This document shows, in pieces, positions 29,757 to 31,671 of a stretch of 64,000 nucleotides of DNA; positions within the stretch are counted from its first letter, which is position 1, and the number at the start of each line of letters is the position of its first letter. Where the stretch lies: assembly GCF_947387515.1 (NCBI RefSeq), contig NZ_CANDOB010000005.1:1-64000 (forward strand). The letters run 5' to 3'. The notes beneath the pieces are model-generated. The model was given only the letters and a program-made list of their open reading frames with translations. It searched no databases and was not told the origin of the DNA. The position numbers and the translations under genes were made by a program. Source of the stretch: Alkalihalobacillus sp. CinArs1 (GTDB lineage: Bacteria; Bacillota; Bacilli; Bacillales; Guptibacillaceae).

Positions 29757-30878
29757 ATGACAATTTTAATTAAGAACGCCCGTGTATACCCGATAAGCAG
29801 CGCGATTTTAGATCAAGCAGATGTTCTAGTACGAGACGGCTTGATCGAGAGAGTCGCCACTTCAATTGAAGAAAAACCTGACATGACGGTCGTAGATGGA
29901 AGTGGAGCGCATCTTCTTCCCGGATTGATCGATGCGCATACGCATGTAGGTCTATATGATGAGGGAACAGGTTGGGCAGGTAACGATGCCAACGAAACAG
30001 TAGAAGCACTCACCCCTCATGTTCGTGCCCTAGATGGGGTCAATCCTCTTGATCTTGCATTCAAGGACGCCATTTCATTTGGAGTAACTTCTGTGCAAGT
30101 GATGCCAGGTAGTTCGAATATTATCGGAGGCACTACCACAGTCTTAAAGACATATGGAAAGAATGTTGAGAAAATGATCGTTCGAAAAACGGCAGGGCTT
30201 AAGGTTGCATTAGGTGAAAACCCAAAAAGGGTTCATAGTCAATCAAACAACGAGTCCATTACAAGAATGGGAATTACCGGACTGTTGCGCGAAGCATTTT
30301 ACAACGCCAGCAAATCTCAGCCCTCAGAGCACCCTAGAGTCGCTCCGATCATCGCAGCCTTAAAAAGAGAGATACCTGTACGAATCCATGCTCATCGAGC
30401 AGATGATATTTTAACAGCACTACGTTTTGCAAGAGAATTTAATTTAGATGTACGAATCGAACATTGTACTGAAGGACATCTAATCGCAGATGAACTAAGC
30501 GGACAGAACCTTCGGGTCACCGTTGGACCCTCAATGACGAGACGTTCTAAGATTGAACTCAAAAACAAGACCTGGGCTACTTATGGCATTCTAAATAATC
30601 ACGGTATTGAAGTTTCGATCACTACCGATCATCCGTATGTTCCGATTCAATACTTGAATATATGTGCGGCCCTTGCAGTAAGAGAAGGTTTAAGTGAAGA
30701 AAAAGCACTAGAGGGAATTACGCTAAATCCTGCAAAGAGCCTAGGCGTAGAGGAGCGTATCGGTAGTATCGAAGAAGGGAAAGATGCTGATTTAGTCTTA
30801 TGGTCCCACCACCCATTCCACTTTGAAGCACGTCCACATTGGACCATGATAAATGGAAAAATTATTCATAGAAATTAG
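29757..30878 (+). CDS. Amidohydrolase family protein
   Basis: A 373-residue metal-dependent hydrolase with a split beta-sandwich and TIM barrel. Metal ligands are visible as H-T-H (IDAHTHVGL, about 61-63), the histidines of RIHAHRADD and IEHCTEGHL, and an aspartate in ITTDHPYVP. The C-terminal end GSIEEGKDADLVLW is the usual return to the sandwich domain. It resembles the imidazolonepropionase-like/dipeptidase group. Substrate not predictable. A moderate ribosome site (AAGGTGAT) precedes the ATG. Confidence 0.85.
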   Translation: MTILIKNARVYPISSAILDQADVLVRDGLIERVATSIEEKPDMTVVDGSGAHLLPGLIDAHTHVGLYDEGTGWAGNDANETVEALTPHVRALDGVNPLDLAFKDAISFGVTSVQVMPGSSNIIGGTTTVLKTYGKNVEKMIVRKTAGLKVALGENPKRVHSQSNNESITRMGITGLLREAFYNASKSQPSEHPRVAPIIAALKREIPVRIHAHRADDILTALRFAREFNLDVRIEHCTEGHLIADELSGQNLRVTVGPSMTRRSKIELKNKTWATYGILNNHGIEVSITTDHPYVPIQYLNICAALAVREGLSEEKALEGITLNPAKSLGVEERIGSIEEGKDADLVLWSHHPFHFEARPHWTMINGKIIHRN

Positions 30879-30960
30879 TGATATTTACAGTATCATTTTC
30901 TTAACAAATCGAGTATGATACTTTTGAAGCCAAAATAAACTAAATACAACTTCATAATTT

Positions 30961-31031
30961 GAAATGGGAAGGCAATTGGTGCGCCACCAGCAAAGTGACT
31001 GGTCCTAGTGGGTTCGATTCCCACCCCGAAT
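30961..31031 (+). ncRNA. tRNA-like domain in the leader of the GNAT gene
   Basis: Arms in canonical tRNA order: D-arm GGC/GCC (30971-30973, 30983-30985) with a 9-base loop containing TTGGT; anticodon-like arm ACCAG/CTGGT (30986-30990, 30999-31003) with an 8-base loop; 4-base variable region; T-arm GTGGG/CCCAC (31008-31012, 31020-31024) with loop TTCGATT, which fits TTCRANY. The acceptor stem is poor: only TGGG (30965-30968) against CCCG (31025-31028). There is no CCA end. It cannot be an ordinary tRNA and lies in the sense direction in front of the GNAT gene. Confidence 0.7.
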
Positions 31032-31088
31032 AATAATTCAACATACTATTATTCGAGGGTGGGGTGAAATCTGCCCTCGACAGGAGGG
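31020..31088 (+). promoter_or_regulatory. Switching hairpins between the tRNA-like domain and the GNAT start
   Basis: Three helices compete in series. (1) 31020-31035 pairs with 31047-31063, 16 pairs with one bulged A, and uses the 3' strand of the T-arm. (2) CGAGGG (31054-31059) pairs with CCCTCG (31074-31079). (3) CCCTC (31074-31078) pairs with GAGGG (31084-31088), which contains most of the Shine-Dalgarno CAGGAGGG. Helices 1 and 2 exclude each other, and 2 and 3 exclude each other. No T run follows, so control would be on translation. Confidence 0.6.
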
Positions 31089-31094
31089 AAACTC

Positions 31095-31649
31095 ATGATT
31101 AAAAATCGTGACCTGTCGGAATGTCATGTTCTCTTTGACTTGATGGTTGACCCAGCTGTCTTCCCATTCGTACGTCATAAAGCAAATTCATATGAAGAAT
31201 ACTTGTTTTTAACAAAACAAACGATAGAAGCTGAAGAACAAGGCGAGCTCATCTCAAGAACAATCCTTGATGAATGGGGAGCACCGATCGGTACTATTAA
31301 TTTGTTCGATATTCAAAATCAAGCAGGCTTTCTAGGCACATGGATTGGAACGCCTTATCATGGAAAAGGCTATAATCAAATCGCAAAAGACGCGTTTTTT
31401 AAAGAACTTTTTTACGAAAAGCAAATTCAAACCATTTTTCTTCGAATCAATCGAGACAATGTTCGCTCGCAGAAAGCTGCTGAAAAAATCCCTTACGTTG
31501 AACTGGCGAACGAGAAATGGCCAGGTGTCTATCAGCAAATCAACAGTGGTGAAAAATCGTATCACCTTTATGAGATCGAAAGAGATAATTATTTATTGCA
31601 TACAATGCGTGATCGTACAGAGACAATTGAAGTTCAGCTAGAAGCTTAG
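31095..31649 (+). CDS. GNAT family N-acetyltransferase
   Basis: A 184-residue acetyltransferase of the RimJ/RimL-like type. The acetyl-CoA region is around WIGTPYHGKGYNQIAKDAFF (residues 87-106), with the late IFLRINRDNVRSQKAAEKI motif (113-132). Start: SD CAGGAGGG is 6 bases before the ATG at 31095. The C-terminal 30 residues are family-atypical. The acceptor is unknown. What is special is its 5' leader, which carries a tRNA-like domain and competing hairpins. It is a single gene with its own terminator. Confidence 0.85.
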   Translation: MIKNRDLSECHVLFDLMVDPAVFPFVRHKANSYEEYLFLTKQTIEAEEQGELISRTILDEWGAPIGTINLFDIQNQAGFLGTWIGTPYHGKGYNQIAKDAFFKELFYEKQIQTIFLRINRDNVRSQKAAEKIPYVELANEKWPGVYQQINSGEKSYHLYEIERDNYLLHTMRDRTETIEVQLEA

Positions 31650-31671
31650 TTCCTTTTTAGGAACTTTTTTT
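31648..31671 (+). terminator. Terminator of the GNAT gene
   Basis: AGTTCC (31648-31653) pairs with GGAACT (31660-31665), followed by T6. It overlaps the stop codon. Confidence 0.8.

Follow-up and report, generated by a model that had tools for sequence, protein, structure and literature searches.

The leader of a GNAT acetyltransferase gene of Alkalihalobacillus sp. CinArs1, within the 64,000-nt stretch of DNA analysed here (the window), carries a tRNA-like cloverleaf that is real, widespread, mechanistically coherent and without a match in Rfam 15. Our preferred reading, to which we give a probability of about 0.6, is that the element is a cis-acting translational ON switch of the riboswitch type, built on a tRNA-like scaffold and an orphan candidate; the switch itself is proposed from structure prediction and the comparison of leaders, and we infer its sensing step. 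The closest known system is the yjdF riboswitch, from which the element differs in sequence, junction and gene. An earlier note on this DNA had interpreted the leader as a translational switch sensing the stability, modification or protein binding of a tRNA mimic, an interpretation that is partly supported by the results below.

The cloverleaf occupies positions 30966–31027 of the forward strand, which carries all features of the window described here, and is near-invariant in 102 distinct leaders drawn from 116 loci. Its acceptor-like stem has 3 pairs (GGG at 30966–30968 with CCC at 31025–31027), as against the 7 bp of a tRNA acceptor stem, and no CCA end follows; the stem is the same in 94/94 distinct sequences, so that zero variation leaves zero covariation. 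The acceptor and D stems are joined by AA in 98/99 aligned rows and by AAA in locus L300. In the D-like arm (30971–30985), GGC at 30971–30973 pairs with GCC at 30983–30985 around the loop AATTGGTGC, whose GG is constant in 99/99 aligned rows; two of the stem pairs are invariant, and the third, a G-C pair, is G-U in 2/94 sequences and broken in 1/94. The anticodon-like arm (30986–31003) pairs ACCAG at 30986–30990 with CTGGT at 30999–31003 and closes an 8-nt loop. This loop and the inner stem are variable, with 67 distinct inserts and loops of 3–9 nt among the 102 leaders, and a loop so free to vary reads no codon. The variable-loop-like linker, CCTA at 31004–31007, is TCTA in most leaders (TCTA 75, CCTA 17, CTTA 10; n = 102), and the T-arm (31008–31024) consists of GTGGG at 31008–31012, the loop TTCGATT at 31013–31019, again constant in 99/99 aligned rows, and CCCAC at 31020–31024. 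Thus the arms stand in cloverleaf order, the D-loop contains GG and the T-loop conforms to TTCRANY. The core departs from tRNA, with AA at what we take to be the usual U8-A9 positions and without the pair we would number R15-Y48. The arms in tRNA order, the D-loop GG, the 8-nt anticodon-like loop, the poor acceptor stem and the missing CCA had been described in the earlier note and are all seen in the sequence, as is every pairing it listed, position for position.

Downstream of the aptamer lie an A/T-rich hairpin (31028–31054) that is present in both predicted states and in which 7/10 consensus pairs are changed on both sides (alignment A1), a switching strand, GAGGGTGGG (31055–31063), an anti-SD strand, CTGCCCTCG (31071–31079), and the Shine-Dalgarno (SD) sequence GGAGGG (31083–31088). 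The GNAT gene (31095–31649) encodes 184 aa with an Acetyltransf_3 domain (Pfam PF13302, 4.4e-13). A terminator-like hairpin at its 3′ end (31648–31665) is a weak feature, 1 being found where 0.6 are expected in shuffles.

Sequence variation supports the T- and anticodon-like arms. Cloverleaf pairs hold in 99.7% of cells across the 94 distinct sequences, in an alignment that was fitted to the model and leans towards it; slid controls are 28–58% paired. Compensatory changes were found in 24 cells distributed over 5/16 pairs, compared with a shuffle mean of 1.6. Changes on both sides affect 3/5 pairs of the anticodon-like stem and 2/5 pairs of the T-stem, the latter being G-C to A-U replacements in six of the 94 sequences. 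The earlier note had asked for compensatory changes in all four helices and had named a lack of covariation as a sign against the switch: the T- and anticodon-like stems do show such changes, while the acceptor stem never varies and the D stem changes on one side only. A rival hairpin, TGGTG/CACCA, between the D-loop and the anticodon-like stem, is pairable in 99.1% of cells and has 0 both-side changes, as in shuffles, whereas the anticodon-like stem does have them. It is seen in the free-state fold of one leader (L070), would disrupt both the D-like and the anticodon-like arm, and may be a further element of the OFF state.

The likeness to tRNA extends to similarity searches with R2, a covariance model built on the cloverleaf alone. 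The next-best full-length matches to R2 are ARAGORN-called tRNA genes in 19/20 cases inspected, comprising 5/5 in the genome studied here, 12/13 picked from the class-sample list (one of the 12 being a less certain tRNA-SeC call) and 2/2 in genome G436. Three further R2 matches in the genome studied here cover the T-arm only, two of them within ARAGORN calls, and a tRNA-His gene of another genome (L231) has the very same T-arm, GTGGGTTCGATTCCCAC. ARAGORN called no tRNA at the leader. No Rfam 15 family matched anywhere in the window at gathering scores, and a search of 30850–31120 at E values up to 10 returned chance-level and T-arm-fragment matches only, with no tRNA, yjdF or T-box among them; these weak matches (pemK, E 1.1; T-arm fragments of tmRNA) were rejected as chance or as the shared T-arm. 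When 11 element-bearing loci were scanned with RF00005, the sole match lay elsewhere in its locus (L170, 2926–2996).

The element is common in the order and tightly linked to one gene. A GNAT protein search, from which the best 80 of the 300 confirmed loci were taken, reached across many genera of Bacillaceae and related groups; the leader lies directly upstream of GNAT in 80/80 of these loci and in the window. Applied to a class sample, R2 found the element in 34/398 Bacilli genomes at 79.9–95.2 bits, the next score among the matches listed being 31.6. In a phylum sample (398), the other matches below E 1e-6 were two tRNA-Asn gene copies at 40 bits. Within the order, 304/397 sampled genomes carry the element at E 1e-8 or better, all in single copy except G846, which has three; the large scans ran with stricter filtering, under which weak matches may be lost. 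Inspection of 83 model-found loci (L141–L171 including the window, L209–L211 and L264–L312) placed a GNAT orthologue directly downstream in 82, bearing out the expectation that hits of a covariance model would lie before GNAT genes. A free RNA without GNAT linkage, which had been held to point to a decayed tRNA gene instead, was mostly not borne out; one of the G846 copies of the element lacks a GNAT. That copy (L291, element at 1501–1566 on the minus strand) is followed by an unclassified ORF of 180 aa, 144 nt past an SD-like site; the two further copies in G846 both precede a GNAT gene. Apart from this orphan the element has a single gene context, and for that reason the gene association does not name a ligand.

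The gene is more widely distributed than the element. The class sample includes 38 genomes of the order: 27 with both element and GNAT, 0 with the element alone, 1 with GNAT alone (at 43% identity) and 10 with neither. GNAT matches at E 1e-20 or better occur in 107 genomes of the class sample, 6 of which hold weak relatives only; the element is present in 34 of the remaining 101 orthologue-bearing genomes and absent from 67. These 67 comprise 1 genome of the order, 9 of family f19, which also has seven genomes with the element, and 57 of other families. The f2/g3 genomes showed neither a strong match to the element nor a GNAT. In the window an amidohydrolase gene (PF01979, 29757–30878) lies upstream on the same strand as GNAT; such a gene is upstream in 64/80 loci (best 80 of 300), and a related gene is upstream in NZ_CP089998 too. 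A mobile or phage element was considered and rejected: two exact patterns gave zero matches in viral contigs, no phage match was found, and the single match among plasmid records (49% query coverage), on a 690-kb Cytobacillus replicon, sits in the same setting between amidohydrolase and GNAT genes.

Several other leaders precede the same GNAT orthologue, suggesting that the gene may be under several kinds of RNA control. In L196 (G022), a different leader begins 158 nt before the GNAT start (GGGTAGGC...CCTTACCCGTAAATTTTTT...AAAAAATTTATTAAGGTAGG); its competing-strand layout is similar, it has no recognisable tRNA arms and no R2 match, and it is possibly a remodelled relative of the element. 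Other very conserved leaders of about 100 nt, found in family f32 (L213–L216, L244–L263), carry GTTCGAAC or GGTTCAAAC together with GCGGTC; R2 had no match in L213–L216. A further type, AAACTAGCC..GGGTTTGAATTCC or close forms, occurs in family f19 (L206, L208, L219), and related sequences with a possible hairpin right before the ribosome site occur in family f20 (L199, L201, L217, L220). A Bacillus methanolicus RNA-seq study lists the acetyltransferase BMMGA3_15110 among very highly abundant transcripts (PMC4342826).

Folding predictions indicate that the cloverleaf competes with structures that close the ribosome site. The leader has a minimum free energy (MFE) of −48.9 kcal/mol (z = −3.6 against 200 dinucleotide shuffles), and its MFE structure is the predicted OFF state, in which the T-arm is broken, the switching strand pairs with 31020–31027 as part of a long hairpin (31020–31035 with 31047–31063, 16 pairs and one bulged A at 31056), and the anti-SD strand lies on the SD, 31074–31078 being complementary to 31084–31088. 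This agrees with the claim that the ribosome site would be closed without the tRNA-like fold. When the cloverleaf is enforced, the anti-SD strand is predicted to move to 31054–31062; the earlier note had paired 31054–31059 with 31074–31079, and the enforced structure extends this helix to 9 pairs (31054–31062 with 31071–31079). We then compared SD accessibility between free and cloverleaf-enforced ensembles of the 102 distinct leaders; for controls, the sequence separating the aptamer from the SD was shuffled. On average the SD is unpaired with a probability of 0.21 in the free ensemble and 0.58 in the enforced one (mean gain 0.37, compared with 0.01 in the controls), with an increase in 100/102 leaders; the gain exceeded 0.2 in 71/102, as against 10.7% of controls, and fell below it in 31/102. 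In a full relay, the switching strand pairs with the T-arm/acceptor strand in the free state and, in the ON state, with the strand that covers the SD in the free state. Such a relay is predicted in 62/102 leaders versus 0/408 shuffles, and is absent from 40/102. Invasion of the T-arm strand is predicted in 96/102 leaders versus 53/408 shuffles.

A second set of 41 distinct leaders, fetched later, behaved in the same direction and more weakly. The relay was predicted in 14/41 leaders versus 0/246 controls (absent from 27/41), T-arm invasion in 35/41 versus 27/246, and increased SD accessibility in 37/41 versus 104/246, with a mean gain of 0.16 (controls −0.01) that did not rise above 0.2 in 26/41. 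Direct pairing between the T-strand and the SD was not enriched in this set (1/41 versus 20/246 controls). One leader, L294, is a natural minimal form that has no relay and in which the complement of the T-strand is the SD itself. Enforcing the cloverleaf on the 102 leaders costs a mean of 9.2 kcal/mol in nearest-neighbour terms (0.8 to 20.8), which probably exceeds what a ligand alone repays; at such a cost the model calls for a decision during transcription or for tertiary contacts outside the energy calculation, and points to strong stabilisation by tertiary structure or ligand. The earlier note would have counted homologues without the competing helices against a switch; such homologues were mostly not encountered. 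The exceptions are L296 and L299, where holding the cloverleaf costs as little as 0.8 and 0.3, respectively, and the T-strand escapes invasion; the SD of L296 lies inside another hairpin in both states. An intrinsic terminator within the leader was also considered and rejected: in this genus (CGAATAATAATTC), as in several others, no U-run follows the aptamer, which makes transcription attenuation unlikely. Based on conservation, compensatory changes, GNAT linkage and folding controls, the proposed switch, in which the tRNA-like fold excludes the long hairpin and leaves the SD free, is supported.

The leader thus has the two parts by which a riboswitch is recognised, a conserved aptamer and a mutually exclusive expression platform, the latter by prediction. 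Without the cloverleaf, the 3′ strand of the T-arm and acceptor would take GAGGGTGGG, leaving CTGCCCTC to cover the SD and keep the gene off; with the cloverleaf held, GAGGGTGG would capture CTGCCCTC, the SD would be free and the gene on. A ligand would act by stabilising the tRNA-like fold during transcription of the leader. It would most likely be a small molecule bound in the remodelled core, formed by the AA between the acceptor and D stems, the D-loop and the linker, and the switch would raise the level of a GNAT that acetylates the ligand or a related compound. A small-molecule riboswitch of the yjdF kind is at least as likely as the sensing of stability, modification or a tRNA-binding protein.

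The best-surviving alternative, which we regard as unlikely, is that the tRNA mimic is sensed by a protein: the GNAT itself, or a protein that binds or modifies tRNA, would attach to the cloverleaf and so open the ribosome site. Some aminoacyl-tRNA synthetase mRNAs carry tRNA-like operators at which protein binding closes that site. In the E. coli thrS operator, which likewise places a tRNA-like structure at the ribosome site of an mRNA leader, the synthetase represses by binding via anticodon-like loops, whereas in the present leader the anticodon-like loop varies freely and the regulated gene encodes a GNAT. The invariant T-loop and the T-arm shared with a tRNA-His gene would suit proteins that bind the tRNA elbow, which might need both, and the tRNA genes that rank next to the element in the model searches also fit a protein partner. 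Set against these points are the 3-pair acceptor stem without CCA and the core positions that depart from tRNA and themselves vary hardly or not at all, suggesting a dedicated pocket. T-box leaders (RF00230) are a further case of tRNA-related leader control in Bacillota. They bind tRNA in trans, whereas the present mRNA is itself tRNA-shaped, and RF00230 had no match in the window at the gathering score or in 30850–31120 at E values up to 10.

We consider it improbable, more so than protein sensing, that the device works without a ligand of its own, either as a cis-acting tRNA-like translation enhancer or as a general sensor whose tRNA-like folding responds to ions, polyamines or temperature. 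In its favour, the excerpted account of yjdF reports that tRNA-like structures before the SD raise in vitro translation 2- to 6.3-fold (PMC9142559), but generic enhancement needs neither invariant loops nor a competing OFF chain. The polyamine version is tempting because spermidine acetyltransferases (SpeG) are the top Foldseek matches to the AlphaFold2 model of the GNAT (pLDDT 85.9), at 11–17% identity among the 50 matches listed. GNAT folds are widely alike, however, with 425 Foldseek matches at E 0.001 or better, and the SpeG ranking of this predicted structure does not settle the substrate. In sequence-profile comparison the neighbours are MccE (3.3e-6), RimJ/RimL-type enzymes and SpeG (7.5e-4), with MccE ahead of SpeG; a search with the sequence alone gave a GCN5-family enzyme as its best PDB match (1.9e-4), and PADLOC gave no match.

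A riboswitch binding a small molecule, as we prefer, might also be a diverged yjdF (azaaromatic) riboswitch (RF01764) moved to a GNAT gene, a reading we strongly disfavour. According to the excerpts of our main source (Trachman et al. 2022, PMC9142559), the yjdF riboswitch has a tRNA-like fold with a conserved GG in the D-like loop and a non-essential anticodon-like loop, sets its T-loop strand against the SD, and is ON with ligand. Shared features are therefore a cloverleaf aptamer whose D- and T-like loops are conserved and whose anticodon-like loop varies, an OFF state that uses the T-arm strand, and cis-acting translational control in which the tRNA-like fold is the ON state, here by prediction and with exceptions among the leaders; L210, when folded without constraint, pairs part of its SD with the T-arm region, as in yjdF. 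The same excerpts name acetyltransferases among yjdF-controlled genes, with identity to the present GNAT left unstated there (PMC9142559), while a second source, likewise in excerpt, describes genes other than yjdF as very rarely adjoining the riboswitch (PMC4793209). Against this shared logic and polarity, the element has the T-loop TTCGATT, a 3-bp acceptor stem and a 2-nt AA junction in place of the purine-rich extended J1/2 that forms the ligand site in yjdF. Most leaders with a predicted chain use a helix relay instead of direct T-loop/SD pairing, and the element precedes GNAT rather than the yjdF gene. RF01764 at E values up to 10 had no match in the window leader or in 11 element-bearing loci (L145, L147, L155, L158, L166, L168, L170, L209–L212), while recognising the yjdF locus of a relative, L223, at 91.7 bits; R2 in turn had no match in L223. 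RF01764 was found in 1/41 relatives (G803), a genome without the element.

A decayed tRNA gene or chance cloverleaf, suggested by the poor acceptor stem, the missing CCA and the negative ARAGORN result, is dismissed as having next to no probability, given near-invariance across many families, compensatory changes and the linkage to GNAT. The tRNA-Other of Bacillus cereus, mentioned in the earlier note, resembles the element in being tRNA-like within a longer Bacillus RNA; by the description in the portion of the paper used, it is a pseudo-tRNA with a Trp anticodon that adjoins a genomic island and forms part of a larger RNA having sigmaA, sigmaB and Fur sites, and the terms 'GNAT' and 'acetyltransferase' are absent from that main text (PMC3399842). 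This description lends no support to a relation between the two. Literature searches, and term searches in the main texts of PMC8632094, PMC11109978, PMC6429828 and PMC2864571, likewise brought up no tRNA-like motif linked to a GNAT gene; these sources leave aside the 224-motif survey of 2017, and an earlier description may exist.

In its most ambitious form our preferred reading would make the element a second, independent tRNA-shaped riboswitch, in which a real tRNA elbow is kept and the core is rebuilt as a sensor, serving one acetyltransferase across most of the order's sampled genomes; we put this forward tentatively, as a rather unlikely proposal. In its boldest version the aptamer would respond to aminoacylation inhibitors or intermediates, a tRNA mimic thereby reporting on poisons directed at tRNA. 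The idea arises because the GNAT is nearest, by profile, to MccE, and MccE acetylates aminoacyl-nucleotide toxins. The invariant loops, the free anticodon-like arm and the minimal natural variant lend themselves to easy mutational and structural tests. If the reading is correct, the leader would offer a well-bounded orphan riboswitch for ligand search and a pointer to the substrate of a widespread GNAT family. yjdF is the single riboswitch class described with a tRNA-like fold in the excerpted literature compared; a second class, unrelated to it by covariance model, strongly conserved and linked across the order to a single enzyme, would mean that the tRNA fold can serve repeatedly as a scaffold for RNA sensors.
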